Virus record (IMG/VR): IMGVR_UViG_3300032053_000039
Span: 1 to 64,000 of that record
DNA length: 64,000 bases
Reading direction: 5' to 3' (one strand)
DNA from: a virus
Shown: positions 3,485-61,925 of the stretch, in pieces
Position numbering within the stretch: position 1 is the stretch's first letter
Layout of the letters: every line of letters begins with the position of its first letter
Position numbers and translations under genes: made by a program
The notes under the pieces: generated by a model
What the model saw: only the letters and a program-made list of their open reading frames with translations
Databases searched by the model: none
Told to the model about the DNA's origin: nothing

Positions 3485-3946
3485 TTATTCTATTCTAAGC
3501 AATCCTCTATATTCTTTCTCATTGGTGATCATGTCTCTCTTGTGATCTTCTGCTTGCTGCTGAATACTTTCAAATGCTGCATAAACAGTAGCACTCGTTT
3601 CCATAAGCTTTTTAACTTGATATCCTATCTCTGCAGATATTCTTAAATTTGTCTTCATTCCTCGCATAGATGCCAAATATACTCTTTCCGCATCTTTTAC
3701 ATATTTATTTTTATCATTGATAATGTTTTCAAGATGTCGTATTTCAGCATTCTTTTCTTCCATTTCTAGAAAGTGTTCTTCTTTTAATCTACTTCTATCT
3801 TCTTGAAATTTTATATTAATTTCTTCTGATGTTCTTCTTCTTTCATTCTCTTTTATTCTAACAAGATAGCTTTCCATATTAGAAGTATGAACATATCCTC
3901 TCTTTTCCAAGAATTTAACAAAAACATCTTTACTTGGTTTCTTCAT
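3485..3946 (-). CDS. Hypothetical coiled-coil protein, 153 aa
   Basis: Strongly charged and helical. Residues 30-95 are a long predicted coiled coil (ENERRRTSEEINIKFQEDRS) with heptad spacing. The gene starts 2 bp after the DnaB-like helicase stop and so shares its operon. Position next to the helicase makes a replication accessory role possible, but no family is recognised. Confidence 0.7.
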   Translation of the reverse strand: MKKPSKDVFVKFLEKRGYVHTSNMESYLVRIKENERRRTSEEINIKFQEDRSRLKEEHFLEMEEKNAEIRHLENIINDKNKYVKDAERVYLASMRGMKTNLRISAEIGYQVKKLMETSATVYAAFESIQQQAEDHKRDMITNEKEYRGLLRIE

Positions 3947-3948
3947 AT

Positions 3949-6489
3949 CTAAGCTCCTGTTAATAAGTCTGATTTACTCATATTAATATTATGCTGATAC
4001 TCTGAACTTATTTGCTCAAAGCAGGTAGTATCTGGATTGAATAGAAAATTTACAAGAGTATTATTTTCCCCCATCCGTTGTTTCAAAACAATTATTTCAG
4101 CTATATTTTTATTCATGCCCTCTTGTATTGCCTGGGCATTGTGTTCTTCCTCTTCTCCAAAAAGATTATTTTGATTGGCTATATTTTCTAACATCTTTGT
4201 TTTAAGGGCTAACTCTGGAGAATAGTACGGTCTATGAACTCCTAGAACTATATCAGATACTTCTGTAAGAGCACCTGCGTTTTTTAAATCATTCATATTA
4301 GGTCTATTAAATCTTCTATTGGCAACATCTCTTCGTATTTGAGCCACAAGGATCATATGAATTCCAAGTTCTTTGACCATAGGTTGTATTATATTAACAG
4401 TCTTTTCATAATCCCTGGCAAAGTTATCACTGCTTTGAAGTTCTTTTATTTTACCAAATAAATCTATAACGACAACCATATACCCAGTTTTAAGATGATC
4501 CTGTAAAAGCATTATTTGCTCTCGTATAGATTTTATACTTTGATTTGGTTTATCATTGAGATAAATAAATCTATCTCTTCTTAATCTTTCTAGTTCTGTA
4601 TCATAAAATTGTCTTTCTTCTGTAGATAAGAGATCAGGATCGGATACTATCTTGCTTACAGGTATACCACTTTTGAAAGCGACCAATTTATGAATAAGAG
4701 GCATTGAGTTCATCTCTAAAGCAAACTGAGCTGTTACTACTCTTTTATTGGATAGATTCTTCATGGAAGACAAAACGAATGAAGAATTGTGTGTAACTGT
4801 AAAATCTTTGAGAATATACAGACCATCTCCCTCTAATTCAAAACCATAATAATCATATTTACCATCATGGGAAATTTCTATTTTCGTTTGAGTTGGTAAA
4901 TGTTTTTTATTATGTTTATAAGCTATTTTTCTTTTTATTTTAAGAGGGATCTGGTAATTATTTCCACATATTCTTATTCTCCAGTACATTCCTTTGAAGT
5001 CTATGGATTTTATTCTTTTTTCTTCTAAAGTGGCTGTGCAATAAAATCCCAGGCTTCTAGATAAGAATAATATATCGTCTTTTAATTGTTGATATTTCGT
5101 AGATATTTCATGTATTCCTGAAGTCATGTACCCATCGGTATCTAGAAGTCCTGCTAATAGATTTAACCTAATTTCTTTAGAATTATATAGATATTCCTTT
5201 GGTACGTGCTTATTTTCTATAAGATTGTAATTTCTCAAGGAATTTAAAATGTAATTTTCTTCAGAACTTCCTCTTCCATTACTAATCCTGCAGTTAGGAC
5301 AATTTGGCCTATCTTTAGTAGTATCTTCGTGATATAACATATTTAATTTATTAGCATATTCTTTTAAATAGGTTCTTATTTCTATATCTGGATTTGAAAT
5401 AGTTACTCCCGAAGAATAACCGTCACCAAGCCAAACCCCTAAGAAGTAGGGATCTAAAAGAATTTTCTTTTCCTCAAATTCTAGAGTAGCCTTATATCCT
5501 CGATATTTATTAAAAAAGTTATCTGATTTTTCTAATGCGTCTTTAACAGATACATTAACTATTTCTCCATTTTCTTTCCAGCCTATAGAGACCCGACAAC
5601 CTCTTTCAGCTCCTATTCGTGTTCGAATAGAGCATCCAGCTTTTTGAAGAGAGAGTATATGATCTTTATTTACAAAATAGTCATCTCCTCGTTTTTGATG
5701 AATTTTGTACATATCTCCAAAACCTTTCGTAGTTGATAGAACTTTTCTAGATTTTGAATCAGGCCCCATCAATAAATCATCTACAACAATATCTTCGACT
5801 TTCTTAAAGGAACAATCATACATCATTATTTTTGTTCCTTTCTTCTGACATTTGCCCATAGAGCTAAGTCCCGCAACAGTTGTTATTTGCTTTGGAGCAA
5901 ATCCTTCTGTTAGCAGCGCATCTAATTGAGAAAATCCTGTAGTATACTTTTCTCTTGTTAATTTTTTCTCTTCAATGTAAGCCGGGATTAATTCTTCCAT
6001 TCCTTTAAATTCAAGCCGTGAAGAAGAATATCCTTGTTCTACCATAGATTGAAAATACTTTAAACGATCTTCTATATCTGAAAGCGTTGATGAAGAGTTT
6101 ATACAAACTGAGTATAAGGATGAAGATTTTTCAAGTATGTTTGATTTAATACTGTCAGTTACTAGTTTTTCTAGGTGGGCTTTAAAATTTTCATGAGGTA
6201 TCTTAGGATAGTTAGATACAAGTGAAGATAAAAATTCAAATGTAACAAAAAATCGTATTGGACATGATTTTGATTTTAGGAGTATTGATTCATAATTTAC
6301 ATCTATATTATCATTACCACATTCAAGAACTGCCCAGGAGACGGTCTGATATTCTTTCTGTCTAAATACTTTCCAATTACCTTGACGTAAGAAATAATTT
6401 CTATTTTCAGAATCTTGTATAACATTTGAAATAATAGTAGCTTCATTATCCATATCTATTGGATAATCAAAGAGAACGGTATTACTCAT
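3949..6489 (-). CDS. dnaB: Replicative DnaB-type DNA helicase, intein-containing
   Basis: After removing residues 214-568 (intein), the extein is 491 aa, a usual DnaB size. It has an N-terminal helical domain, then FSQLDALLTEGFAPKQITTVAGLSSMGK, where the Walker A loop reads SSMGK|SSF across the splice site. Downstream are the DnaB/RecA-fold elements ARDYEKTVNIIQPMVKELG, ILVAQIRR and the late-domain KNAGALTEVSDIVLGVHRP. It unwinds the fork 5'-3' and recruits primase. The loader (14.2 kb), primase (11.9 kb) and polymerase (16.9 kb) lie in the same leftward block. The helicase cannot hydrolyse ATP until the intein is spliced out. Confidence 0.93.
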   Translation of the reverse strand: MSNTVLFDYPIDMDNEATIISNVIQDSENRNYFLRQGNWKVFRQKEYQTVSWAVLECGNDNIDVNYESILLKSKSCPIRFFVTFEFLSSLVSNYPKIPHENFKAHLEKLVTDSIKSNILEKSSSLYSVCINSSSTLSDIEDRLKYFQSMVEQGYSSSRLEFKGMEELIPAYIEEKKLTREKYTTGFSQLDALLTEGFAPKQITTVAGLSSMGKCQKKGTKIMMYDCSFKKVEDIVVDDLLMGPDSKSRKVLSTTKGFGDMYKIHQKRGDDYFVNKDHILSLQKAGCSIRTRIGAERGCRVSIGWKENGEIVNVSVKDALEKSDNFFNKYRGYKATLEFEEKKILLDPYFLGVWLGDGYSSGVTISNPDIEIRTYLKEYANKLNMLYHEDTTKDRPNCPNCRISNGRGSSEENYILNSLRNYNLIENKHVPKEYLYNSKEIRLNLLAGLLDTDGYMTSGIHEISTKYQQLKDDILFLSRSLGFYCTATLEEKRIKSIDFKGMYWRIRICGNNYQIPLKIKRKIAYKHNKKHLPTQTKIEISHDGKYDYYGFELEGDGLYILKDFTVTHNSSFVLSSMKNLSNKRVVTAQFALEMNSMPLIHKLVAFKSGIPVSKIVSDPDLLSTEERQFYDTELERLRRDRFIYLNDKPNQSIKSIREQIMLLQDHLKTGYMVVVIDLFGKIKELQSSDNFARDYEKTVNIIQPMVKELGIHMILVAQIRRDVANRRFNRPNMNDLKNAGALTEVSDIVLGVHRPYYSPELALKTKMLENIANQNNLFGEEEEHNAQAIQEGMNKNIAEIIVLKQRMGENNTLVNFLFNPDTTCFEQISSEYQHNINMSKSDLLTGA
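4786..5850 (-). other. Intein 1 in DnaB (LAGLIDADG type), 355 aa
   Basis: Begins at Cys214 directly after the Walker A lysine (SSMGK) and ends at Asn568 in VTHN, with Ser569 as the +1 nucleophile. The N-terminal splicing block reads CQKKGTKIMMYD; block B has NKDHILSL. Two endonuclease motifs are intact: YFLGVWLGDG and LLAGLLDTDG. The insertion site is a known hot spot in DnaB helicases (established knowledge). Splicing competence is inferred from complete terminal residues Cys1, His-Asn and Ser+1. Confidence 0.92.
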
Positions 6490-6503
6490 GTAAGATCCTC
6501 TGT

Positions 6504-6674
6504 TTAATCTATGGGCAGATGCAATTCTCTATCAAAGTATCCATCAATGTATTTCTCTATGAGAAAGGCACAGACTTCACTTTCGGAAATATCGTAGAAT
6601 TGACATTTGTTTTTAAACTTGTCGTAAGAATTCCTTGTAAGACGAATCTGTAGTGCTTTTATTCTTTCATCCAT
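6504..6674 (-). CDS. Small ribbon-helix-helix-like protein, 56 aa
   Basis: ATG at 6674 lies inside the 3' end of the sigma-like gene (16-nt overlap); stop TAA at 6506-6504, just before the helicase start. A beta-strand-like start (ALQIRLTRNSYDKFK) is followed by two helices (ISESEVCAFLIEKYIDGYF), the layout of a CopG/Arc DNA-binding fold. Probably a dimeric repressor or a structural variant of that fold. Confidence 0.6.
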   Translation of the reverse strand: MDERIKALQIRLTRNSYDKFKNKCQFYDISESEVCAFLIEKYIDGYFDRELHLPID

Positions 6675-7432: not shown

Positions 7433-9718
7433 TTATACAACGGATTCGATTCCCCCGTCTTCATCGTATTCTTTAATAAGTTCTTTATAAAATCTAATTC
7501 TTTTAGCCGTAAGTATCTTTAACAAATACACCGGCAATCCATTACTATCTGGGTAGTGTGCAAGATTATCACATATATCAAATACAATTGGAAGAGGTTT
7601 ACCCTCAACAAATCGTCGTATCCTGCCCAATCGTTGTTTTATCTGTGGTAAATTGGATGATGGACACGTTAAGAACAATGCTGATAATCTTGGGAGATCT
7701 AACGCTTCACTTGCGATCTTTGTATTACCTACGATACACTGAATGCTTGTGTCTTGGCGTATCTCTTCCCATCGGGTAGATTTCCGAGTCTCTCCTATCA
7801 GGAGGACTGTTTTATACCCAAGAGAAACAAGATGCTCATTTATTTTTTTGTTATGATCGATTCTGTCACTTAATACTAAGGGATAGTATCCGGCTTCAAT
7901 GGTTCTTGTGACTTCGGATACTATTAGGTTATTCCTATCCCTATCTTCTGTTAATTGACTAATACATCTAGTTATATCTAAAGTTTGTTCTCTTTTCTGT
8001 CCAGTCCACCGCATTGTGGTGGGTATTTCAAAACGTATATTAGTATTTATAATCCTATAGTCAAAACTAGTTATACGATGTTTAGCATCTTTTGCCTCAA
8101 TGTCAATTAATTTTTCCCCCAGGGTATCATAAATTAATATATGCTTTCCATCTCTCCTTTCTACTGTTCCTGTAACTCCTACACGATATTTGGCAGGTAA
8201 ATTATTGATAACAAGATGAAACATTGGAGCACTACATCTATGCGTCTCGTCAATCACAACCATCCCAAATTTATTAAAATATTCTGGATTTTCTTGAAAC
8301 ATAATATATACTGTATTTATAATACCTAATACAATATCACCGTCTTTTTTCTTTTCTCCATTTAATTCTCCCAAGGAGTATGTGCCAAAAAGCCTTTTTT
8401 CTATTTCCCCGGTCCACTGCTTACTTAATCGATGTTCATGTACCATTATAAGAGTAGGTTGCTTTACTTTGCTAATAAGATCAAGTATCGCTATACTCTT
8501 TCCACTGTTATGAACTACCATTCCGTTTGCCACAAAGTTATGATGTGGTTCTTTACATACTATATCGTAAGTATCTTCTATTCCACAAAAAGATATCTTT
8601 TTTACTTTTGAGTAATGTGGTATTCCTTGATTAAAATTAAATTTATTTTCTATAGAATGTAATAAACAATGATCCTTTTCTAAAAGACATTCTAAATTAG
8701 ATATATCATTATTAAATGGATTCCTATCCTTATGATGTATATGATATTTAAAAGGATCTATAAATTTTAATAATTTACTCCCCTTTTTATCGTTTTTTAT
8801 TGTATTTATAAAATCATTAAAATCTAATTTATTAATATAAGCTTCATATAGTAGTCTGTGAACTTCTGCTCTTTTTGTTATAGAACCTTTTTTTTCTATT
8901 TTAATTCTAGCATACTTATGATATTTTAATCCTGATATTTCTTTAGCTTTTGTTTTTTTTCTAAGAGAAGGTACTTCTTTTTTAGAACTATGAAGCTTAT
9001 CACACATTATTTCAGATTTACCTATTTTTAATTTTTTTAATTCTATCCATCCTGTTTTTGTCATAATTTTATGATCTTTTGTTGCCTTTATAAACAGACC
9101 ATTATCTAGTTCTAATCTATAAACATTCTTTTTCCCGCTATAAACTATATCTTCAATTTCATACAATTGAATAGTATTTCCATTATAGCTTCTTATATAA
9201 GTAGGAAAATTTAAATCCCAATTATGATAAGCATTTCCCAATTGATTAAAATGTTTATATGCTGTCTTTATTTTTAAAGATTTTCCAATTCCAGTTCTAT
9301 GGAGTCTTATTTCAGTGTCTCCTGTGATACAGCCTGGGGCTGCTTCTATAAGCCCACCTTCGTTTTTATAAAGAACATTTACTATTTTGTTTTGATTGCT
9401 ATCTAAAACAGTGTCTACCAAAGAACAATCTATAGAGTTGTGAGAAATTCTTCTATCTATAATAGTAGGAGAAATTCCTAATCTTTCACACAATAATAGC
9501 ACCCGCTTTAATCCCCCTCTTGGGAGTATAAGCATTTGATTTCCCATCATATTATCTATTCTATAATGATAAATAAATTCTGGTGTGTTTTTTACAGAAA
9601 ACTTTTGACGCTTCTTTTCAGCATATTCAGGATTTTTGTAAGTAAACTCCTTACAAAAATCTCCTACGTTATTTCCTAATTCGTTCGTATTTATGTATAT
9701 CTTGTCTTTTACTATCAT
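7433..9718 (-). CDS. Superfamily 2 DNA helicase (UvsW/XPB-like), intein-containing
   Basis: Extein of 486 aa after removal of residues 130-404. The spliced Walker A reads AAPG|SGKS. Then come motif II DETH (VVIDETHR), motif III-like VGVTGTVERRDGK and a C-terminal helicase domain with IVGNTKIASEALDLPRLSALFL and motif VI QIKQRLGRIRR. This is the SF2 layout of phage UvsW and archaeal XPB-like helicases, which remodel stalled forks and recombination intermediates. Its 3' neighbours are the sigma-like gene and DnaB. It overlaps the gene at 9669 by 50 bp. Confidence 0.9.
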   Translation of the reverse strand: MIVKDKIYINTNELGNNVGDFCKEFTYKNPEYAEKKRQKFSVKNTPEFIYHYRIDNMMGNQMLILPRGGLKRVLLLCERLGISPTIIDRRISHNSIDCSLVDTVLDSNQNKIVNVLYKNEGGLIEAAPGCITGDTEIRLHRTGIGKSLKIKTAYKHFNQLGNAYHNWDLNFPTYIRSYNGNTIQLYEIEDIVYSGKKNVYRLELDNGLFIKATKDHKIMTKTGWIELKKLKIGKSEIMCDKLHSSKKEVPSLRKKTKAKEISGLKYHKYARIKIEKKGSITKRAEVHRLLYEAYINKLDFNDFINTIKNDKKGSKLLKFIDPFKYHIHHKDRNPFNNDISNLECLLEKDHCLLHSIENKFNFNQGIPHYSKVKKISFCGIEDTYDIVCKEPHHNFVANGMVVHNSGKSIAILDLISKVKQPTLIMVHEHRLSKQWTGEIEKRLFGTYSLGELNGEKKKDGDIVLGIINTVYIMFQENPEYFNKFGMVVIDETHRCSAPMFHLVINNLPAKYRVGVTGTVERRDGKHILIYDTLGEKLIDIEAKDAKHRITSFDYRIINTNIRFEIPTTMRWTGQKREQTLDITRCISQLTEDRDRNNLIVSEVTRTIEAGYYPLVLSDRIDHNKKINEHLVSLGYKTVLLIGETRKSTRWEEIRQDTSIQCIVGNTKIASEALDLPRLSALFLTCPSSNLPQIKQRLGRIRRFVEGKPLPIVFDICDNLAHYPDSNGLPVYLLKILTAKRIRFYKELIKEYDEDGGIESVV
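8507..9331 (-). other. Intein 2 in SF2 helicase (HNH type), 275 aa
   Basis: Runs from Cys130 (CITGDTEIRL) to Asn404 (NGMVVHN), followed by Ser405 of the P-loop. Between the splicing blocks is an HNH homing-endonuclease signature instead of LAGLIDADG: AEVHRLLYEAYINK, then YHIHHKDRNPFNNDISNLE. This is the smallest intein in the window. Splicing residues Cys1, HN and Ser+1 are all present. Confidence 0.9.
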
Positions 9719-11682: not shown

Positions 11683-11895
11683 TTATACTATTTTTTTATA
11701 CACGTAACGAGTTCTTATATTTTTGCTAAAGAATTTACCGATAGAAGGTGATTGCATAAGTTCTTGATAGATTTCCTCTGGAATGCTTTGAAATTCATAA
11801 ATAGAACCACTATTAAAAGCTATCAAAAGGATATTGTTATCAGGATCGTAACCTATCTTAGATATCGTTGATGATTTGACCGGAATTAGTTCCAT
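11683..11895 (-). CDS. KTSC-domain protein, 70 aa
   Basis: The whole protein matches the KTSC domain pattern: SSTISKIGYDPDNNILLIAF, then GSIYEFQSIPEEIYQELMQS, then SIGKFFSKNIRTRY. These small domains occur alone or fused to lysyl-tRNA synthetases and in phages; the biochemical role is not established. The start lies 38 bp inside the 3' end of the primase gene, so the two are translationally linked. Confidence 0.8.
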   Translation of the reverse strand: MELIPVKSSTISKIGYDPDNNILLIAFNSGSIYEFQSIPEEIYQELMQSPSIGKFFSKNIRTRYVYKKIV

Positions 11896-13972
11896 ACTTT
11901 TTCTCCAAAAAATATTGATTTATAGATACTTCTTTATAAGTAGACTCTACCAATTCTTCAATAGTGCAATCTGCAGCATCTTTTCTATGCTTTGGAAGAA
12001 AGCAGATACTTACTTTTGTTGCATGTATTAACTGATGAGCAGATTGTATTAGCTTTTCCCCCATTAAATCATTGTCTGGAACAATAACAACTTCTTTATA
12101 CAGTCGTAATAGCTTTATTTGGTCTGGGAGAAGTCTATTGGAAAGAGCAGCAACGCATTGATTTCTTGTTCTCATGAAAAATATAGAATCAAATATTCCT
12201 TCTGTAATATATATCTTCTTTGTAGTATCTGAAAATTTATCTATACCAAATAAGAGATCATTTCTTCCATAAGATCCGTACTCTTTACCACTACCAAAAG
12301 TGCTTCTCATAAAATAATTTCTTAATATTCCTTTTTGATAGATTGGTATAAGTATCCATCCAAAATATCTTTTGAATTCTATATTAAAGGCATCATTAAT
12401 AGAACCCATTTTCCATTCTACAATTTCTTTAGGGGTTATGCCTCGTTCTGAAAGATATGGGTGAGTTTCTAATAAACGATGTCCTGGTATAACAATTTCT
12501 TTGTTTTCAGATTCAATTAAAGAAACAGACCTCGAGTTTATAAAATTCTCAAGGAACTTTCTAACTTCCTCATCAGAGTTTCCACCTGTAAGGAATTTTT
12601 TAAGATAATTCTTGGATTCCTCAAAATTTAATCCTTTGCTATTAAGTAGTGTAAATAAGTTACCCTTAAAATGACAATTGTGTACTGCAATCCCATTAAC
12701 AGTATATGAATGATCCCTTTCTACAGTTAGATCAAATACTCTTCTATTTTTACAAGGGAATATCTTTTTATCAACGATTCTATATAGAATTTTATCTTCA
12801 AGTATGATACTATCTAATTTTTTAGATTCTTTAATCCACCAAGATACAATAAAACTTTTTTTATGGTTTACTCCATTTTTATCTATATGCTCTGAATGTA
12901 TCCTCAAAGATGGCGAAAATCCAAGATTGCATAAAATAATTTTTAGTTGATAAGCTAATGTTTTAGATACAGTTGCAGCCGTTTTTAATCCATTCCTTGA
13001 AATATACCCATCTCCCAAGTAATAGCCCTCTATCAAAGATTCTAATATTTCTTTTGGATAAGATAAAAATTCAAACGGAACTTTTTTATTAATAGAGGTA
13101 TGTCCGCAAATATCATCCAACCATCTTCCAATTATAACATTAGGAATTAACACCGATAAACTATGTTTACTATTTTTATGTAAATACTCTTTACATTCAA
13201 TATCGAACAAACTTTTCGATATTTCATATATTTTTCTAACAAGATGCTTTTTAGTGGTATTATTTATATTAAATAAAGCTCCTCTATTAAGAGATCCTTC
13301 TGCAATATATAATCCTATAAGCCATGCTACGTCCTTTGTAACTTTTATATTATTTTTAAAAATTTTAGGAATCTTTCCAAAAGTTTTTTTGTATTTATCT
13401 ACATCTATACTTATAACAGGATCTTTTACAAATTCTTTTATTTTAGGGATATATACCCAATCATCTATATTTATATCCTTCGCCTCAGATTCTTTAAAAT
13501 CTGAAGTTATTAACACTCTTTCTCCTTTTTTTCTTTTATCTATCCCTTTTTTAAATCTTCCATAAAAAACATCTTCATTCTTATATATAAAAAATTTATG
13601 ATCTTCGGTACAAACTATTGGAGATCCTTCTTTGGAAATTGAAAATTCTACCATATTTCCAGAATATTCTTTTTCTAAAATTCCTAAAACCTTATTAAAA
13701 TTACCATTATGAGTTAAAACAGAATCTCCAATTTTAACTGATTCTATAGCTACTATAGAATCTCTTAACACTACAGGAGTACTAGGATCAAAACATCCAA
13801 AACAATGTATTGCACCCGTTTCTTTATGAACATGCATAGACGGGTTTCTTTCAACGTGATTAGGATTAAGACATTTTATTTTTACATTATCAGAACCTGC
13901 TGCTTTATATTCAATACCTAAATCTTTTAAGACATCAAGTACCTTTATTTGTATTAAGGTATTACGAAGCAT
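11858..13972 (-). CDS. dnaG: DnaG-type DNA primase, intein-containing
   Basis: The extein is 331 aa after removal of residues 60-432. The N-terminus is a CHC2 zinc-binding domain: IKCLNPNHVERNPSMHVH, then AIHCFG|CHF split by the intein. The C-terminal half has a Toprim domain with the acidic motif ITEGIFDS and VVIVPDND. It synthesises RNA primers for the DnaB/PolA replisome. It lacks a long C-terminal DnaB-binding domain, so it is a short phage-type primase. Removal of the intein is needed to rebuild the zinc site. Confidence 0.9.
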   Translation of the reverse strand: MLRNTLIQIKVLDVLKDLGIEYKAAGSDNVKIKCLNPNHVERNPSMHVHKETGAIHCFGCFDPSTPVVLRDSIVAIESVKIGDSVLTHNGNFNKVLGILEKEYSGNMVEFSISKEGSPIVCTEDHKFFIYKNEDVFYGRFKKGIDKRKKGERVLITSDFKESEAKDINIDDWVYIPKIKEFVKDPVISIDVDKYKKTFGKIPKIFKNNIKVTKDVAWLIGLYIAEGSLNRGALFNINNTTKKHLVRKIYEISKSLFDIECKEYLHKNSKHSLSVLIPNVIIGRWLDDICGHTSINKKVPFEFLSYPKEILESLIEGYYLGDGYISRNGLKTAATVSKTLAYQLKIILCNLGFSPSLRIHSEHIDKNGVNHKKSFIVSWWIKESKKLDSIILEDKILYRIVDKKIFPCKNRRVFDLTVERDHSYTVNGIAVHNCHFKGNLFTLLNSKGLNFEESKNYLKKFLTGGNSDEEVRKFLENFINSRSVSLIESENKEIVIPGHRLLETHPYLSERGITPKEIVEWKMGSINDAFNIEFKRYFGWILIPIYQKGILRNYFMRSTFGSGKEYGSYGRNDLLFGIDKFSDTTKKIYITEGIFDSIFFMRTRNQCVAALSNRLLPDQIKLLRLYKEVVIVPDNDLMGEKLIQSAHQLIHATKVSICFLPKHRKDAADCTIEELVESTYKEVSINQYFLEKKYGTNSGQIINDI
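12677..13795 (-). other. Intein 3 in primase (LAGLIDADG type), 373 aa
   Basis: Cys60 (CFDPSTPVVL) to Asn432 (NGIAVHN), with Cys433 as the +1 residue. Endonuclease motifs are AWLIGLYIAEG and LIEGYYLGDG, both with their acidic residue. Block B is CTEDHKFF. The +1 Cys433 is also expected to be the fourth zinc ligand of the CHC2 domain, so splicing chemistry and metal binding use the same residue. Confidence 0.9.
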
Positions 13973-46988: not shown

Positions 46989-48107
46989 TTATTTATCCTT
47001 ATTTATCTCTGCATAAGATTCAATACGTTTAATACCACAGCTTATAATCTTTTCTTTATCTAGATCTGTTTTATAATTATTAACATAATCCCTAAATATA
47101 TCATAACTGCTTTTTCTTGTATTTATAAAAATACTGTCAGAACCTGTATTTTCTTTTTTATCTCTCTTTTTAATACTTCCAATAAGGCATTCTCGATCTT
47201 TAAAGAATTTATATATTTCTGTAATATTTAATTTTTCTTCAAATAAATGATCTATAAAAATAACGGATCCTAGTAATATTCTTGATGATTTAAAAAATTC
47301 TAGAGGATCTATTCCATCTGGTACAGAGTATCTTAAAAACTTTCTTATTCCTGGTATTTCTTCAAAGTAAGAATTTCCATCTTTATCTATAAGGCAAAAT
47401 CCTTTTTTAAGTCCTATGTCTGTAGCATCCATATAGGATGTTGATCCAGGGTAGATAACAGATACATTTCCTTTTACATAATTTTGGGCTGTGTGGATAT
47501 GACCTAGAAGAAATAAAAACTTTCTATCTTTAAATACATCTGCATCAAGAAGATAAACTCCCCGAGACAGCATTCGGCTTTCAGATCCTATACGGCTAGA
47601 ATACTCTTGAATATGTGATACGATCATAGTTCTGTCTCTTGCAGAAGAGATGGCCATCTCAAGTTCTTGATTGACAAAGGCATCCTTATCCTTAAGACTT
47701 TTATTTGGGACATACGGTATAAATTTAACATTCCAATCGTACCAATTAAAATTGTGGTTTTCTTCGTAGATAAACTTTATATTTTTAAGTTTCAGTTTAC
47801 TTCCAAAAATCATTCCATGATGGTACATAGAAGTATCATGATTTCCTGTAATAATATATACGGGTTTATTCAAAGAATCCATATTAAAAAGCCATTCTGC
47901 CAAAAATTGAACATTCGGTGGGGTAGGATGGTTTGTATGAGTCATATCTCCACCAAAGATTATAGTATTAATATCATCCTTTTTACCTCTTTCAAATATA
48001 TAATCAAGAGCCTTCATAGCATCAAGTTCTGCTGAATATATTCCGTTAGAGTCCTGAATTGAATGAGATCTTAATCCTAGATGAATATCACTGAAAAAAA
48101 GTATCAT
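46989..48107 (-). CDS. sbcD: SbcD/Mre11-like nuclease (T4 gp47-like)
   Basis: Metallophosphoesterase motifs in order: FSDIHLG, GGDMTHTN, ITGNHDTSMYHH, IVSHIQEYS and GHIHTAQN, the active-site set of Mre11/SbcD. The C-terminal 140 residues form the capping and ATPase-contact region. It cuts DNA ends with SbcC. The 4-bp overlap with the DUF115 gene (48104) implies one operon. Confidence 0.93.
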   Translation of the reverse strand: MILFFSDIHLGLRSHSIQDSNGIYSAELDAMKALDYIFERGKKDDINTIIFGGDMTHTNHPTPPNVQFLAEWLFNMDSLNKPVYIITGNHDTSMYHHGMIFGSKLKLKNIKFIYEENHNFNWYDWNVKFIPYVPNKSLKDKDAFVNQELEMAISSARDRTMIVSHIQEYSSRIGSESRMLSRGVYLLDADVFKDRKFLFLLGHIHTAQNYVKGNVSVIYPGSTSYMDATDIGLKKGFCLIDKDGNSYFEEIPGIRKFLRYSVPDGIDPLEFFKSSRILLGSVIFIDHLFEEKLNITEIYKFFKDRECLIGSIKKRDKKENTGSDSIFINTRKSSYDIFRDYVNNYKTDLDKEKIISCGIKRIESYAEINKDK

Positions 48108-49132
48108 TTAATTTTCTCCCTTATTTCAAGTTTCTCCAGTATTTCAAGGTTAATTATATCTAATCCCTTAAGTATCCCTGATTTTGAAGAATTAAGAACG
48201 TATCTATGTGATACTTTAATCAAAGATAAGAGGAGCATAGCATAGTAACTAAATAATTTAGAGGTATAATAATCATTTTCTGTGTGAGGATCAAAGTACT
48301 TAAGTTCTTTTTTTACTTCATATTTTATAACTTCTTTTTTAGAAATTCCTAAGGCACGAGCTCTTCTTTCAAGATAGTCCTTACAATAATATTTTTTATG
48401 AGTATATGCTAGATCGTATCCTGATAAAATAATACAACTAGGATCAAGAAGAACCGATATTATAAACATTGCATTTCCGACCCATCCGTTATTTTGGACA
48501 TAAGGGTACTTTCTTGTCTTCCATGTCATTTTCTTTAGTACTAAATTTTTATATCGAATAGTATCTGATTGATTAAAAAATAATATTTTTCCTTTCCAGG
48601 CTTTTAGTGCTTCGGGGTTTAGTGTCGAAGATGCAACTAGTATTAAATCAGAAGTATCTAGATCATGCCAAAAGAATTTAATTAGTATTGATGGATCTAA
48701 AGATACTACAAGATTTGGTTTTATTTTATTTTTTAGACAATTATAAAGAACGGCATCTTGACAGATTATATAAAAATTGTGGGTCATTTTTTTAATAACC
48801 TTTATATCTTTATCAAGAGAAGGTCCATCTGCAAGAAGAATAACTGGTATGTTTCTTGATAATCTTTTCTTTAAGATTTCCAAAGAATCAACCCTTGTTG
48901 TTATTTTAAATATTCCTAATTTTAAATTTTCTGTGTAATTATCTCTCCATGTTTTTATAAAAGGATCTTTCTTTACCAATTCTATTTCTTTGGGTATTGA
49001 TCTTATTTCTTTTATACAGGAATAAATTAATTTTATACATTTTAATAAATAAAAAATAAAATTTATTCCAAACAGCTTAAGATACTTTATAGTTTTTTTG
49101 AAATATCTTTCCAATCTATTAAAGAACCACAT
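48104..49132 (-). CDS. DUF115/MptE-like protein, 342 aa
   Basis: The core IPVILLADGPSLDKDIKVIK, YIICQDAVLYNCLKNKIKPN and LVVSLDPS, followed by ILVASSTLNP and GWVGNAMFIISVLLDPSCII, matches the DUF115 / 6-hydroxymethylpterin diphosphokinase-like fold. In bacteria this family works in flagellin glycosylation and cofactor pathways. In phages the substrate is unknown. The ATG lies inside the upstream gene by 46 bp. Confidence 0.75.
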   Translation of the reverse strand: MWFFNRLERYFKKTIKYLKLFGINFIFYLLKCIKLIYSCIKEIRSIPKEIELVKKDPFIKTWRDNYTENLKLGIFKITTRVDSLEILKKRLSRNIPVILLADGPSLDKDIKVIKKMTHNFYIICQDAVLYNCLKNKIKPNLVVSLDPSILIKFFWHDLDTSDLILVASSTLNPEALKAWKGKILFFNQSDTIRYKNLVLKKMTWKTRKYPYVQNNGWVGNAMFIISVLLDPSCIILSGYDLAYTHKKYYCKDYLERRARALGISKKEVIKYEVKKELKYFDPHTENDYYTSKLFSYYAMLLLSLIKVSHRYVLNSSKSGILKGLDIINLEILEKLEIREKIK

Positions 49133-49593
49133 TTAGAACACTCCATAGTCCAAGCATCAATGATATTACTGCAGCTACATGTATAATCCCAATTTAGATA
49201 TTCTGTACCCATACCCTCTCTAACTTTCTTATATTTCGTAGGTGTAGCTAATTTAATTTCTTTTTTATCGGAAGAAAGACCTGGCTTTTTTATTTGTTTT
49301 AAATTTTCTACAACAGCATTAAAATATTTTAACGAATGCGTTTTAACTAATCCTTTTTCCCAATCTTCTTTAAAATATTTTACACATTCTACAAGTCTAT
49401 CTTTACCTACTTTTTCTACCAACATTGATATATTTGTTATCTTGTCCTGTTTCGTTATTTTTTTCTCTGCACCTTCTCTTTTAAATTTAGTATAATCGAA
49501 AAATGAATTATAAAATCTACAAACAATATCTCCATCTTCCCTTCCAAATGTTTTATGACAAAACTCTCTAAATCCTTCGAATACCTCTCTCAT
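49087..49593 (-). CDS. Zinc-ribbon protein of unknown function, 168 aa
   Basis: A helical basic body (REDGDIVCRFYNSFFDYTKF) and a C-terminal zinc ribbon (CSCSNIIDAWTMECSKCGS). The C-terminal end overlaps the DUF115 gene; its ATG overlaps the initiator gene stop. Initiation accessory or nuclease-like roles are possible, none shown. Confidence 0.6.
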   Translation of the reverse strand: MREVFEGFREFCHKTFGREDGDIVCRFYNSFFDYTKFKREGAEKKITKQDKITNISMLVEKVGKDRLVECVKYFKEDWEKGLVKTHSLKYFNAVVENLKQIKKPGLSSDKKEIKLATPTKYKKVREGMGTEYLNWDYTCSCSNIIDAWTMECSKCGSLIDWKDISKKL

Positions 49594-50777
49594 GAATAAA
49601 TCCTCTCACCTTCTTGTGTTACTAAATAGTCTACCTCCGTTCCACACACAGAACAGAATCTTAAATCATCATGAAGTTGTGTTTTATGACCACATTTACA
49701 AACATATACATAATTATCTTCAACAGGTTCTAAATGAGATGTGTCTTCAGGTACATTTCTTAGCAGGGCCTCTAGAAAATACTTAGGGGTTATCTTTCTT
49801 GAACAGATTCCAAGTGCAATGCTTCCTTCGATGGTTTCTATAGCTTCAAGTACTTTACTCAAAGTGAATCTATTTATCCAAGTTTCTAAAGATTCTAATC
49901 GAATAATATTTTTTTCAATTTTAGATTGTTTCCCGTACACCTCTATCCGTTGTAAAATATTAATTATCCTGTTGCTATTCTTAATTAAATCATTATAATA
50001 TATAGGTATACATCCATTGTTTTTATCTATTAAAAATTGAATAAGTCCCGCCGAGGTCAATTCTTTTAAACTTTCCTGAGTCCTTTCTTCTCTTAACTCT
50101 TCTAAGGAGTTCTCTTTCTCCCCCTCTTCTCTTTTAGGAATTCCTAAAGAGTTATCTTCCTGATGTTTTTTTTCTTCCCCAAAAAAAAGATCTGTAGTAA
50201 TCTCTGTAGTATTCTCTGTAGTAATCTTTGTATATGTATTACAGATTTCCGTAGGAGGGTCATACGGATTTCCGTATGAGGGTGGTACAGATTCTCGTAG
50301 GGGGGTGGTACGGATTTTTGTATGACCCCCCTTTTCGATATGATTATAAGTTATTTCAGTTATTCTTTCAACATTAGGTTCTACAAACATTACATTATAG
50401 AGCATTGTGTTTTTTACAAGTACTTGTCTAAATTCTACAGAAATAAGATTTAAACGTACTAATGTCTCAAATGAATCACGGACTTGCCTTTTGCTAGATC
50501 CAGTTAATTCAGCGTAATCACTATAGCTTTTCTGAAGTTTATCAGAATTGAATTTTTTTGATATTGATGCGATATCATCGGTTTGAGGATCTCTTGTGGT
50601 TGTAGGAGTATACCAATATCTAATATTGGCTAGTATATACGCAGCTAAGAAATCAGTAACTTTTTTTCCTTTAGTTGTTGTATATGTAATTGCTTTTAAC
50701 CAAGAAGGAGGTAGAATATCACCGGATATATTTAATTTTCCAATAGCATCTACAGTAGGTGTTGTATTTTTTATCAT
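49590..50777 (-). CDS. Replication-initiator-like protein with winged HTH, 395 aa
   Basis: An N-terminal region (30-120) with YSDYAELTGSSKRQVRDSFE and RLNLISVEFRQVLVKNT resembles a winged helix-turn-helix of phage replisome organisers. A linker with Thr-rich repeats (ITTENTTEITT) follows, then a helical domain and a C-terminal zinc ribbon (CKCGHKTQ...CSVCG). The gene contains a 92-bp, four-copy 23-bp iteron array. Iterons inside the initiator gene are typical of lambda O-type origins. The DNA binding and origin role are inferred. Confidence 0.65.
   Translation of the reverse strand: MIKNTTPTVDAIGKLNISGDILPPSWLKAITYTTTKGKKVTDFLAAYILANIRYWYTPTTTRDPQTDDIASISKKFNSDKLQKSYSDYAELTGSSKRQVRDSFETLVRLNLISVEFRQVLVKNTMLYNVMFVEPNVERITEITYNHIEKGGHTKIRTTPLRESVPPSYGNPYDPPTEICNTYTKITTENTTEITTDLFFGEEKKHQEDNSLGIPKREEGEKENSLEELREERTQESLKELTSAGLIQFLIDKNNGCIPIYYNDLIKNSNRIINILQRIEVYGKQSKIEKNIIRLESLETWINRFTLSKVLEAIETIEGSIALGICSRKITPKYFLEALLRNVPEDTSHLEPVEDNYVYVCKCGHKTQLHDDLRFCSVCGTEVDYLVTQEGERIYS
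50191..50226. repeat. Three 12-bp direct repeats beside the iterons
   Basis: TCTGTAGTAATC, TCTGTAGTATTC and TCTGTAGTAATC are contiguous, with a diverged fourth copy at 50227-50238 linking directly to the iterons. They are AT-richer than the iterons and could be an unwinding element. The unit is 12 nt (4 codons), so it also gives the Thr-rich protein repeat. An 8-T/4-C/8-A tract at 50165-50190 lies on the far side. Confidence 0.8.
50238..50329. repeat. Four tandem 23-bp iterons (candidate origin)
   Basis: Units at 50238-50260, 50261-50283, 50284-50306 and 50307-50329 share the plus-strand core ACRGATTYYCGTAKGRGG. Unit 2 contains an inverted repeat (ATACGGA-TT-TCCGTAT). The 23-nt period is not a multiple of three and the encoded protein shows no repeat, so the pattern is a DNA signal, not a protein repeat. 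Unit 4 diverges at its right end. Confidence 0.9.
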
Positions 50778-50960
50778 GAGTTCCTCTCGAGTTCATATGT
50801 TATATTTTTTATTTTTTCAGGGTTTGGTTTAACAAACATCACATTATAGAGTACTCCTCCTTTAATTTTTATATTTTTAAATTCTAATTTTACAATATCT
50901 AGAGATTCTAACGTATTAAATGATTCTCGAATTTGCTTTTTACTGAAATTTAATAATGAG
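50774..50960 (-). pseudogene. Truncated duplicate of the replication-initiator gene, no start codon
   Basis: The minus frame ending at TGA 50776-50774 (ATGA with the initiator ATG) encodes LLNFSKKQIRESFNTLESLD, then GGVLYNVMFVKPNPEKIKNI. It aligns with the initiator's LTGSSKRQVRDSFETLVRLN and NTMLYNVMFVEPNVERITEI. The frame is open up to 51067 but has no ATG, GTG or TTG; upstream sequence is replaced by the structured element. Probably a 5'-truncated paralog. Confidence 0.6.
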
Positions 50961-50968
50961 GACAGGAT

Positions 50969-51069
50969 AAAATAAAAAACCTCCAGAAAGTACCACCTGT
51001 TTCCAGGTTCTGCTCGGTATTTCTGAAGGTTGAGGGCTATTACACCCTTAGATATGAGCAGAAAAACCT
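50969..51069 (-). promoter_or_regulatory. Structured leader: terminator stem with competing upstream pairing (attenuator/riboswitch candidate)
   Basis: On the minus strand, arm 51030-51016 (ACCTTCAGAAATACC) pairs with 50994-50979 (GGTACTTTCTGGAGGT) over 15 bp with one bulge and one G-U. TTTTTATTTT follows (50978-50969), an intrinsic-terminator layout. Inside is ACCTG-GAAA-CAGGT, a GNRA-loop hairpin (51008-50995). Upstream, TCTGCTC (51062-51056) can pair with GAGCAGA (51015-51009), forming a pseudoknot with, or an alternative to, the terminator. It lies before the initiator operon. Confidence 0.6.
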
Positions 51070-51070
51070 A

Positions 51071-51420
51071 AGAGTACAATAACGATATTACAAATTGTGA
51101 AATTTTATGTTTCTTATTCTTAAATACTAAAATAAGAGCTGTTTCGTCGGAATATTATAGATAGAGCGGTTTTAATTTTGGGTTCGATTCTGTTTTAGTC
51201 ATTATTTAATCTAATATGGTTCATCTATCTATGTTTTATATAGCAGGACGCTATTTTATAATAAATATCTGTCAATAGAATTTTTTTAAGTCCCCTGAAA
51301 AATATTCAGGAATGAACTTAAACTTACCTTTTCAGGTTAAAATTTTAATCAAATTTCATATAATTATATTAAACGCAATTATACATTTAATCAACATTTA
51401 ATAAATACGAGGTTCTTATC
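51071..51420. promoter_or_regulatory. Divergent intergenic control region
   Basis: No gene is seen in about 350 bp between the leftward and rightward arms. TATAAT occurs at 51257-51262 and 51359-51364 on the plus strand, the second 57 bp before the late gene start, each without a good -35. A nested hairpin at 51285-51322 has an inner stem CCTGAA/TTCAGG and an outer stem TTTAAGT/ACTTAAA. The late promoter may need the phage sigma-like factor. Confidence 0.45.
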
Positions 51421-57656: not shown

Positions 57657-60600
57657 GTGGCAGATGAACTAAAAAATGAAAATAGTCCTATTTCAGGTTA
57701 TCGAGATAATTTTGATATAATTCTACCAAGAGATGTTCATTCTGCAGCAGTACAAGATGATCGTGGAGATAAGCAGAGTACTTCTTCTTATACAGGAACA
57801 GTAAACACTTCTTCTTTTATGGGAATGCAGTCATCTGCTAATATACTGAGAAATCCTACTCGTAGATTTTATGATCCTGAAATTACTACTACAGCTATCT
57901 ATCTTCCCAAAGATATAAAAAGGAATAATAGATGGTGTCGATGGTTTTATGACCATGATGAAATGATTGGAGCTATTTTGGATGTTCATGCAGAACTTCC
58001 TTATTCTAGAGCAAAGTTACGAGTAGATGATCCTGTTATTCAAAGAGCTATTGATGAGTGCCTTGATAAAACAAATTTCTTTTCAATGCTTCCTTTGATT
58101 GATCTTGAATATATGAAAGTTGGAGAAGTCTTTATTTATACAAACTGGAGTGATTCTCTAGGAATGTGGGATAGTATTGTAATTCACAATCCTGACTTTA
58201 TTGAAGTTAAATATTCACCTTTTGCTGATAGAGATCCCGTATTAGAATTAACTCCAGACGAAGAACTTAGATCTTTGGTTCATTCAAGAAGACCTGAAGA
58301 CCAACAACTTAAAAAACGTCTTCCTCAGGATATTGTGAAAAGAGTACTTACGGGTAGAAATATCATGCTCAGCCCCAGTTGTACCACGCACATAGCTCGG
58401 AGAAGTAACCCTTATGATCTACGAGGTACTTCTATACTGCGCAGATTGTTCAGATTGCTCCAATATGAGGACAAACTTAGGGAAGCGCAGATTACGATTG
58501 CTGATAACTTTATTTACCCGCTGAAGATATTTAAACTTGGTGATGAAAATAAAGGATGGATACCGAATGCAAACCATCAGAAGGCTTTGGCTCAGATGCT
58601 TCAGCAGGCAAACTTTGACCCAAATTTTAGTTTGATATATCATTATGGTCTCAAAGTTGATATAATAACTGTAGCTGATAAGCTTATGAAAATGGATACT
58701 GAGTGGACCGAGATAAATAAAAAGAAATGCATGGCTCTTGGAATCAGTGAAGATTTTTTGATGAAAGGTGAGAATTACGCTTGTTTTACTGAAGGAACAC
58801 AAGTAACAACACCGGATGGTAAAAATAATATAGAGAACATTTCTAAAGATACTTTCGTTATTGATAAAAATGGAACTTCACAGAAGGTACTTGATAATTG
58901 GTGTGAAGGAGTACCTGAAACTTTAGTTAATATTAAATTATGGGGTGGAAAAGAATTTCAATGCACTTCTAATCACAAATGGCCGATATGGGCATGGCCT
59001 AGGAACTGTGCTTGTGGTTGCGGGAAAGAAATTAAGACTGGAAAGATGTATGCTCACTCTGGAGCTCGTATTGGAGGAAGAACTGAAAATAAAGTTATTT
59101 TTAATAAAGTATCTTTTGTAAAATGTTTTGGCCACACGACAGTAGCAGGACTTCCTGAAGGATATGATCCTAATATTACTCTTCAAGCATCTGAAATTAA
59201 AAAATATGATTATTTGATGATTCCCCGAAAGTTTTCTGAAATTAAGACAAACACATCCAGGGAGCAAGCACGATTGTTAGGATACTTCTTGGCTGAGGGT
59301 AACTATTCAAAACATCATACGACAAAGGAATTAACTGGGATTAATTTAACTTTTAATGTTAAAGAAAAAGATACCTTAGTGAAAGATGCTTTAGACCTTT
59401 GTAAAAAGATTGGATTGCCTATTGTTCAAATTGAAGAAAACAATAAAAAGAATACAATACGTTTACGTTCTGCAAATAGATTAGAATTCAAAGATCTTAT
59501 TATATGGTTTAAGAAAAGTGCTGGGGAATACTCTTATGGTAAGAAATTATCTGAAGATATTATGAGATGGCCCCTTTTCTTAAAGGAAGAATTAATTAAG
59601 GGAATATTTAGAGGGGATGGTAGTCAGACATCCAAAGTAGTTATGTATACTACAACATCTGAAGTTTTGGCGTATCAAGTGGAACTTATACTAGCACAGT
59701 TAGGATTTATTGCTAATTGGACAATACAGAATAACAGGATAAGAAATTTAACTAGTGTTTATAAAAGGAGAACAACCTATCGATTAGATTTTCATGGTAA
59801 ATTTGCACTTGATCTGGCTAACTTGGTTTGGGGAGAAGATTCAAAAGTGCTAGATGAAACAGAGAAAAAGTTTCAATGTCAAAAAGCGTGGGTTGATGAT
59901 AATTATGTATACGTTATGGTTAAATCGGTTGAAGTAGTAAAAAATACCAAGAAAGTCTATAATCTTACTGTAGAGAATTCTCATAGTTACTTAGTACATA
60001 ATATAGGAACATTTAATTCTGCCAATGTTGGATTACAAATGGCACTGGCACGATATAAAGCAAAAAGGGATCTTTTTGAAATAAAATTTTTACGAGATAA
60101 ATTTTTAAGAGTAATGGCTGAGAAGAATGGATGGTATCAGAGGGATGCCAGGGAAATAGTAGGTCAGTATCGAGTAACAAGAAAAGGAGAAGAACTTAAC
60201 AAAAGACTTATTCTACCTCAGATAATATGGGATAAGAAATTAGTTCTACGAGATGATCAGCAATATCTTACCTTTTTAAATAATGTTTATTCTAATGGAA
60301 AAGGTCCCGTATCTGTATTAACAATGTTGACAGCAATGGGACTTACTTTAGAGGAAGAATTATCGAATAAAGAAAAGCAGAGAGAGCTGGAAGAAAAATT
60401 TGGAGTAAAATCGATTGCGCCTTTACCTGGAGGGCAAGGAGCTCCATTAGGAGCAATGGCTTCAAAAATAATGGATAGATTAAAGTTCGGTAAGAAGAAA
60501 GAAGCTCGTATGGATGAACCGCCCACATTAAAACCAGATGGAGATTTTGTTACACTGGATAATATAAAAGAATACGGAACTTATACTCAGGAAGATGAAA

Positions 60601-61925
60601 ATAATTATGCAGTAGAAATATCAAAAGATTTAATACTAATAGATGATCAGGACTGGAAGAAAAGTTTACAATCTAAAAATGTACCTCAAGAAGTCATAAC
60701 GATACTTTCAAACTACAATGATAAACTGGAAGTAACCTATAAAAGATCAAATGGAAAATTTGCTTCAGAGATACAAGCAACAGGAAAAGAAATTTCAGAT
60801 GTATTGGGTAGAATATATCTTCAGGGAAAACTTTGGGCATATGGATCCACCAACTTTTTGCAGGTATCAAGAAATGTCTATGCCAGGGAAATAAAAGATT
60901 TCTCAGATATATTGATGGTAGAAGAATTCAGGAGCTGGGTAGATCTTATAGCCTCAGCTGACATGGATAAGTCAGCCATATTGAAAAATCTTAGAACACT
61001 GGGGAATACCTGCTTTTCTTATGGTCAATTGAAGGGGTATCAAGAGCAAGGGATAGAAACAGCAAAATTAAGTAATGTTATAGAGAATGACGGTATAAGA
61101 TATGAGATACTAGATTTGCTTACTAAACGGCACAATCTTGCTTCGTTGATATCTCCTCGGGGGGATATTATACTCTTTTCTGGATGTATTGAAGGAAATG
61201 AAACAGTAGATCCTCATATAGAACGATACAAAGATTTTATATCTAACGGAATACGAGTATCTTCTTGCCCTGTTGAGTTTATTAGGCCTACAAAACAATA
61301 CTTAGATAAAGTAGGAAGAGTTCTTAAAAAGAAATACGATACAATCTATTTCGTGCCGGATGTTATAGATTTACCTGAATGGGAAGAACATACTAAAAAG
61401 GCAATAGAAAAGGATCTTATAGATCTTGATAAGAATGCCCGATCTTTATCAATTTCTTCTTCTTTAATGTATGAAAAGCTTAAAAAAAGAGGAAATCTCG
61501 CCATATTTAATAATGGTAGGCATCTTTATGTATCTAATTGGATAGGTACTCAAGATAAATCTATTATTGATAATCTTATAAAGCATGTTGATATTTACCA
61601 GGAAATCGAGAAATCTATAGATAAAGCTTTTGAGAAAAAAGCATATGATCTTACCAGAAACGAACTAGAAACGTATCGGGTTTTTGGATACATAGAACCT
61701 ATAATGCGAAATTCAGAAGTTATTGGATGGAGAGCTGTAGATTCTGGAGAAGAAAGATCTAATGAAAAGATAAAGTTTGGAAAAGCTTGGGATTCTGAAG
61801 GTATTTGTATTAATGAAACAGATCAAGATTCAAAATCATTCTTCTTTGATAATTTAAAATTATGGATAGAATACCCTCATAAACTAGAGGAGTCAACAGT
61901 ACAGAGCTTTAACAAAATATTCTAA
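57657..61925 (+). CDS. Portal protein, intein-containing, GTG start
   Basis: Extein 1,010 aa after removing residues 376-787. The core has portal-like features: CRWFYDHDEMIGAILDVHAE, EYMKVGEVFIYTNWSD, VIHNPDFIEV, RSNPYDLRGTSILRRLFRLL and QYEDKLREAQITIADNFIYP. It forms the ring at the head vertex through which DNA is packaged and ejected. The start is GTG at 57657 with GGGGAGG; ATGs nearby are out of frame. The 450-residue C-terminal extension is longer than usual portals and might be a barrel or clip fusion. Confidence 0.85.
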   Translation: MADELKNENSPISGYRDNFDIILPRDVHSAAVQDDRGDKQSTSSYTGTVNTSSFMGMQSSANILRNPTRRFYDPEITTTAIYLPKDIKRNNRWCRWFYDHDEMIGAILDVHAELPYSRAKLRVDDPVIQRAIDECLDKTNFFSMLPLIDLEYMKVGEVFIYTNWSDSLGMWDSIVIHNPDFIEVKYSPFADRDPVLELTPDEELRSLVHSRRPEDQQLKKRLPQDIVKRVLTGRNIMLSPSCTTHIARRSNPYDLRGTSILRRLFRLLQYEDKLREAQITIADNFIYPLKIFKLGDENKGWIPNANHQKALAQMLQQANFDPNFSLIYHYGLKVDIITVADKLMKMDTEWTEINKKKCMALGISEDFLMKGENYACFTEGTQVTTPDGKNNIENISKDTFVIDKNGTSQKVLDNWCEGVPETLVNIKLWGGKEFQCTSNHKWPIWAWPRNCACGCGKEIKTGKMYAHSGARIGGRTENKVIFNKVSFVKCFGHTTVAGLPEGYDPNITLQASEIKKYDYLMIPRKFSEIKTNTSREQARLLGYFLAEGNYSKHHTTKELTGINLTFNVKEKDTLVKDALDLCKKIGLPIVQIEENNKKNTIRLRSANRLEFKDLIIWFKKSAGEYSYGKKLSEDIMRWPLFLKEELIKGIFRGDGSQTSKVVMYTTTSEVLAYQVELILAQLGFIANWTIQNNRIRNLTSVYKRRTTYRLDFHGKFALDLANLVWGEDSKVLDETEKKFQCQKAWVDDNYVYVMVKSVEVVKNTKKVYNLTVENSHSYLVHNIGTFNSANVGLQMALARYKAKRDLFEIKFLRDKFLRVMAEKNGWYQRDAREIVGQYRVTRKGEELNKRLILPQIIWDKKLVLRDDQQYLTFLNNVYSNGKGPVSVLTMLTAMGLTLEEELSNKEKQRELEEKFGVKSIAPLPGGQGAPLGAMASKIMDRLKFGKKKEARMDEPPTLKPDGDFVTLDNIKEYGTYTQEDENNYAVEISKDLILIDDQDWKKSLQSKNVPQEVITILSNYNDKLEVTYKRSNGKFASEIQATGKEISDVLGRIYLQGKLWAYGSTNFLQVSRNVYAREIKDFSDILMVEEFRSWVDLIASADMDKSAILKNLRTLGNTCFSYGQLKGYQEQGIETAKLSNVIENDGIRYEILDLLTKRHNLASLISPRGDIILFSGCIEGNETVDPHIERYKDFISNGIRVSSCPVEFIRPTKQYLDKVGRVLKKKYDTIYFVPDVIDLPEWEEHTKKAIEKDLIDLDKNARSLSISSSLMYEKLKKRGNLAIFNNGRHLYVSNWIGTQDKSIIDNLIKHVDIYQEIEKSIDKAFEKKAYDLTRNELETYRVFGYIEPIMRNSEVIGWRAVDSGEERSNEKIKFGKAWDSEGICINETDQDSKSFFFDNLKLWIEYPHKLEESTVQSFNKIF
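58782..60017 (+). other. Intein 7 in portal (LAGLIDADG type), 412 aa
   Basis: Cys376 (CFTEGTQVTTPDG) to Asn787 (VHNIGTFN), followed by Ser788 (SANVGLQM). Motifs are ARLLGYFLAEG and LIKGIFRGDG, both with acids. A zinc-ribbon-like CACGCGKE lies at about residue 451. The C-terminal end is offset: a VHN occurs six residues before the true FN|S junction. Confidence 0.85.

Follow-up and report, generated by a model that had tools for sequence, protein, structure and literature searches.

The divergent junction of this phage genome raises the question of what governs transcription into the replication operon, and whether the RNA that leads into the initiator gene carries a signal able to stop it. 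The window, that is the whole stretch of 64 kb analysed here, is a portion of a virus record of 77,435 bases. In it, the minus-strand genes for replication and repair (initiator, SbcCD-like, helicases, primase and UvsX) and the plus-strand structural genes, which include the portal and the head protease, diverge at about 51.1-51.4 kb. The features needed for the argument are listed below, from the initiator gene towards the junction.

49590-50777, minus strand: replication initiator, O-like or DnaD-like (PHROG 270, E 2.3e-10), downstream of the leader.
50240-50317, minus strand: iterons within the initiator gene, 3.4 copies of a 23-nt unit.
50777-50968, minus strand: second initiator copy, truncated at its 5' end and matching residues about 87-156 (43% identity, E 1.4e-14).
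50968-50977, minus strand: U-tract UUUUAUUUUA, directly 3' of hairpin H2.
50978-51031, minus strand: predicted hairpin H2, the putative intrinsic-terminator stem, composed of 12 bp, a bulged C, 4 bp, a 7-nt bulge and an inner 5-bp GAAA hairpin.
50995-51008, minus strand: predicted inner hairpin ACCUG-GAAA-CAGGU, with a GNRA tetraloop.
51009-51015, minus strand: GAGCAGA, the predicted bulge of H2, complementary over its whole length to part of the H1 loop.
51036-51083, minus strand: predicted hairpin H1, with an 18-bp stem and the 12-nt loop UUUUCUGCUCAU.
51056-51062, minus strand: UCUGCUC, in the H1 loop.
51270-51275, minus strand: TTGACA, a possible -35 element of a leader promoter, without a good -10.

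Read on the minus strand, the segment from 51083 to 50968 is predicted to form two consecutive hairpins, H1 and then H2, separated by a linker of 4 nt (CCUC). H1 reads GUUAUUGUACUCUUAGGU-UUUUCUGCUCAU-AUCUAAGGGUGUAAUAGC (51083-51036) and H2 reads AACCUUCAGAAAUACC-GAGCAGA-ACCUG-GAAA-CAGGU-GGUA-C-UUUCUGGAGGUU (51031-50978), the arms of the latter being AACCUUCAGAAAUACC (51031-51016) and GGUA-C-UUUCUGGAGGUU (50994-50978). A preliminary description of this DNA had proposed a minus-strand RNA fold at 50969-51069, which is confirmed with corrections. That interval was too short and cut off half of H1, which reaches 51083. The terminator arms and the U-tract are found as described, as is the GAAA-capped hairpin inside the arms, while the stem counts 16 pairs with one bulged C (50990) instead of 15 bp. 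The upstream TCTGCTC (UCUGCUC, 51062-51056) had not been recognised as belonging to a hairpin loop, that of H1.

Both predicted hairpins have strong statistical support. The folding energy of H2 is -24.8 kcal/mol (z -5.3; 0 of 500 shuffles as stable), that of H1 -16.4 kcal/mol (z -5.3) and that of the two together -42.9 kcal/mol (z -5.5), and in neither of the latter two cases did a shuffle reach the same stability. Further folding runs were in agreement. No other terminator-like hairpin of the window is as strong as H2: the runner-up, at -15.6 kcal/mol, is 9 kcal/mol weaker. In a 110-nt scan over the 64 kb the element ranks third in stability overall and first on the minus strand, the first rank overall being held by the iteron block in the initiator gene. 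The leader RNA upstream of H1 (51083-51300, minus strand) shows no excess of structure relative to shuffles (z 0.13), and the structure is therefore confined to H1 and H2. An intrinsic terminator is defined by a stable, G+C-containing hairpin directly before a U-rich tract, and this is the arrangement found in H2 and its tail; the sequence gives good support to a putative intrinsic terminator accompanied by an elaborate partner hairpin.

The strand on which such an RNA would act can be read from its imperfect pairs. On the minus strand H1 and H2 contain 39 pairs, 33 of them Watson-Crick and six G-U, every non-Watson-Crick pair thus being G-U. On the plus strand the same six positions are A/C mismatches and the z of the fold is only -1.6. 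If non-Watson-Crick positions fell randomly on either strand, the chance of six out of six on one strand would be 1 in 64. The earlier argument for the minus strand had been built on a single G-U pair, and the bias is stronger than was stated. Since all six of these pairs are G-U and the U-tract lies on the correct side, a minus-strand RNA is supported, and function on this strand, if anywhere, as a terminator-like RNA in the initiator leader is well supported. A protein-coding explanation was rejected: although the frame 51067-50774 stays open over 97 codons, it lacks a start codon (ATG, GTG or TTG) up to about codon 76, and homology to the initiator is seen in it only downstream of the U-tract.

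The pairing previously suggested between the upstream 7-mer and GAGCAGA is borne out, in that UCUGCUC of the H1 loop is perfectly complementary to the entire bulge of H2. The duplex has an energy of -11.8 kcal/mol and a p of 0.002, meaning that an equally long match arises in 0.2% of cases when the letters of loop and bulge are shuffled. The idea of a pseudoknot or a switch is accordingly plausible. We favour a kissing contact between two intact hairpins over a mutually exclusive switch, because the match fills exactly the unpaired bulge and sits within the H1 loop; the contact is a good hypothesis. The two hairpins differ little in height (18 bp for H1, 16 bp for H2).

For a switch, the relevant structure is the nested helix UCUGCUCAUAUCUAAGGGU / ACCUUCAGAAAUACCGAGCAGA, in which the 7 bp are extended inward and which would occupy both the 3' arm of H1 and the 5' arm of the terminator. 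According to the energy model it could serve as an antiterminator. Its energy of -15.0 kcal/mol (z -3.1), nearly that of H1, derives mostly from the same 7 bp as the loop-bulge match. When the H1 segment is taken without its three outer base pairs, several intermediate transcripts fold best with the nested helix. If H1 is complete, this holds only for the 80-nt transcript, the shortest one examined, and the H1 fold is again the optimum before the 3' arm of the terminator is made. The terminator state lies at -42.6 kcal/mol versus -25.9 kcal/mol without the 3' arm, ahead by some 17 kcal/mol. No alternative comes close to it in stability, and the model therefore does not predict that the RNA switches unaided.

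Downstream of the U-tract, whose end is about 190 nt from the initiator start, the remnant copy of the initiator has an open frame that begins beside the U-tract, and its stop overlaps the start of the intact gene (ATGA). Remnant and initiator are alike at 78% of second, 62% of first and 60% of third codon positions. Because second positions are more alike than first and third, the remnant, to go by its sequence, was probably still a gene while it diverged, with truncation following afterwards. As the U-tract adjoins the truncated copy, the leader was probably joined to it by recombination. The iterons in the initiator gene are the probable origin, and the terminator region is thus origin-proximal and recombined. 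The promoter scan found no sigma-70-like promoter on the minus strand between 50400 and 51600. The divergent promoter region has a further stable hairpin (51280-51389, minus strand; z -5.8), which lies immediately 5' of TTGACA and has no U-tract; it is a possible operator.

Six related contigs of 39.6-252.9 kb (L005-L009 and L018) were reached via the portal and the first structural-side protein, a small protein which heads the structural operon in all six; given this span the group looks like large phages. A covariance model of the element (R1), run against the 77-kb record, seven related contigs as a whole (two of them short near-identical fragments without this site) and L018, retrieved only the window itself and, as noise, its own reverse complement. 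Being built on a single sequence, this model is a weak probe and could miss a distant relative. The element was not found in two exact-pattern scans of viral contigs, and scans of viral contigs based on the initiator and on the remnant gave no relatives. A portal-based scan of GTDB genomes returned none, a DNA comparison with phage records gave chance short matches only, and no close cultured member of the group was found in the collections searched. With no homologue in the six related contigs or in the exact-pattern viral scans, there is no covariation to draw on.

One relative, L005, has the same gene order, its initiator also directly facing the structural operon, and TTGACA is present at a similar place in its intergenic region. 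Its initiator leader contains a terminator-like hairpin, CGCGAUAU-ACACC-AUAUCGCG followed by a U-tract (2498-2478). From there it is about 80 nt downstream to the better-placed start of the initiator, and the hairpin is unrelated to the element of the window. Its initiator gene has internal repeats at 1885-2010 that are analogous to the iterons. The layout may be common to the two phages; the RNA itself is not shared.

The explanation we place first, at about even chances, is a transcription attenuator: an intrinsic terminator in the leader of the operon of a lambda-O-like initiator, with a kissing contact between loop and bulge. The minus-strand leader RNA of the replication operon, which is presumably transcribed, would fold H1 and then H2 with its U-tract, where termination would stop most transcription ahead of the initiator gene; in this way the terminator may limit the amount of initiator made. 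The 4-nt linker and the near-equal heights would let the H1 loop dock side by side on the H2 bulge, and this modelled docking would set the speed or the quality of terminator formation. Were H1 not to hold, the 5' arm of the terminator could be taken up in a pairing of UCUGCUCAU-AUCUAAGGGU with ACCUU-CAGA-AU-GAGCAGA. The position of the element is read most economically as attenuation of the replication operon, and counted in favour of this explanation are the stability of the hairpins, the rank of the terminator as best of the window, the strand bias, the loop-bulge match, the place upstream of the initiator, the separate terminator-like hairpin in the L005 initiator leader, and the known designs of lambda tR1 before an O-type gene and of the pT181 and pIP501 attenuators before rep genes. 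Counted against it are the lack of a homologue and of covariation, of a good minus-strand promoter for the leader and of predicted unaided switching, as well as the strain that pairing of the 7-nt bulge along its full length would put on H2.

Another possibility, which we consider somewhat unlikely, is a strong terminator without regulation, at which a short non-coding transcript from the divergent promoter region, be it a leader or a small RNA, would end. The initiator would then be expressed either from a promoter of its own within the remnant (50968-50778) or only where processive antitermination operates, and the H1/H2 body may act in trans. The very stable hairpin and strong U-tract, the restriction of stable structure to H1 and H2, and a boxA-like GCTCTTA seen by eye near 51141 on the minus strand speak for it. 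However, no promoter-like minus-strand site lies between the U-tract and the initiator, and the loop-bulge match would go unexplained unless it stabilised the small RNA. Control by an antisense RNA of the pT181/pIP501 kind, with the H1 loop and 3' arm as a pre-emptor of the 5' terminator arm unless bound by the counter-transcript, is quite improbable. The leader of an initiator gene does hold a terminator here, as the repC leader of pT181 holds such a pre-emptor and terminator (PMC5703833), and the nested helix is close to H1 in energy and wins in several intermediate transcripts when H1 is shortened. Against this, the plus-strand promoter-like sites (50868-50896) are no more frequent than in shuffled sequence, no terminator was found beside H1 on the plus strand, the full H1 is again optimal before the 3' arm of the terminator appears, and the energy of the alternative helix is mostly that of the same 7 bp.

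The remaining two explanations are both very unlikely. The preliminary description had offered a ligand-binding riboswitch of a new class, and it would agree with this that the RNA is compact, with two helices and perhaps a tertiary contact, and that the terminator could serve as the expression platform. The result of the Rfam 15 search, in which the whole window had no match at the gathering cut-off, would agree too. With E values up to 10 the best match was Phe_leader, at 23.6 of 55 bits, and matches to lncRNA were likewise far below cut-off. The proposal is unsupported: besides the lack of an Rfam match and of homologues, the downstream gene is a DnaD/O-like replication initiator without a metabolite link and not a metabolic gene, the RNA is mostly plain helix, and, no homologues having been found, no conserved unpaired core can be recognised. 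The segment AGGTGGTAC resembles the T-box core, yet a T-box was rejected as there was no match to this family; group I and II introns, tRNA and tmRNA were rejected for the same reason. The other explanation is a DNA-level origin element or a recombination scar, inverted repeats near the origin and at a gene-truncation breakpoint having no RNA role. It draws on the GC-skew turn at about 50-52 kb, on the iterons and on the truncated copy adjoining the U-tract, and two related contigs carry repeats in the same divergent junction, L006 palindromic arrays AGGTGACAGAACTGTCACTTC beside a ParB-like gene (6340-6530) and L018 direct repeats TCAAGTGGGTCACAT (3580-4000). The skew turn is, however, confounded with the change of coding strand at the same place, the G-U pairs are distributed six to none between the strands, the U-tract is on the correct side, and the plus strand folds only about 1.6 sd better than shuffles.

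Among known systems, lambda tR1 is an early-operon terminator before an O-type gene; it is Rho-dependent and relieved by N at nutR, and the O gene carries the origin iterons. The present locus is similar in having a terminator upstream of an O-type initiator with iterons inside the gene, but the terminator here is of the intrinsic type and no N or nut system was identified. In the leader pseudoknots of the repZ type of IncI and IncL/M plasmids, the loop of one hairpin pairs with sequence beside a second stem, and the pseudoknot activates translation. Loop pairing near a second stem in the leader of a replication initiator would be common to both, whereas the second stem here would be a terminator and is placed about 190 nt ahead of the start codon. 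The pT181 repC and pIP501 repR leaders contain antisense-driven attenuators with a Rho-independent terminator, and an upstream segment can pair with its 5' arm (PMC5703833). The window has a putative terminator of this type in its initiator leader and, upstream, a segment that may be able to pair with the 5' arm. It differs in that there is no support for an antisense RNA or its promoter, that the initiator comes from a different family, and that the replicon is a phage and not a plasmid. The put RNA of phage HK022, a leader RNA of about 70 nt, has two adjacent stem-loops, with a bulged stem, in one compact unit (PMC9378689). The predicted fold of H1 and H2 resembles it in these stem-loops, but put binds RNA polymerase, prevents termination and has no terminator of its own, whereas here the second hairpin would be the terminator.

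Provided that the terminator exists and that the loop-bulge contact tunes it, the element would constitute protein-free gating of a replication operon in a large phage, with terminator efficiency depending on a tertiary contact inside its own stem. A more far-reaching reading, in our judgement unlikely, takes the docking of the H1 loop into a bulge within the terminator hairpin as the mark of a novel type of cis-regulatory RNA. Transcription of the replication operon would then depend on the kissing contact, or on a factor or ligand that acts on this contact. Even a plain attenuator would provide a concrete and testable control point for replication onset in this group of large phages.

Two observations concern the neighbouring genes. 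The replication operon includes a gene for a protein with an MptE-like 6-hydroxymethylpterin diphosphokinase domain (48104-49132, minus strand; Pfam, E 1.4e-29). Intein-like insertions are apparent in the ORFs of the DnaB-like helicase, a second helicase, the primase and the portal (3949-6489, 7433-9718, 11858-13972 and 57657-61925), on the basis of HNH matches or matches to unrelated intein-bearing families within these ORFs; in the portal of L005 an intein-like start is seen at TYA/CFTEGT.
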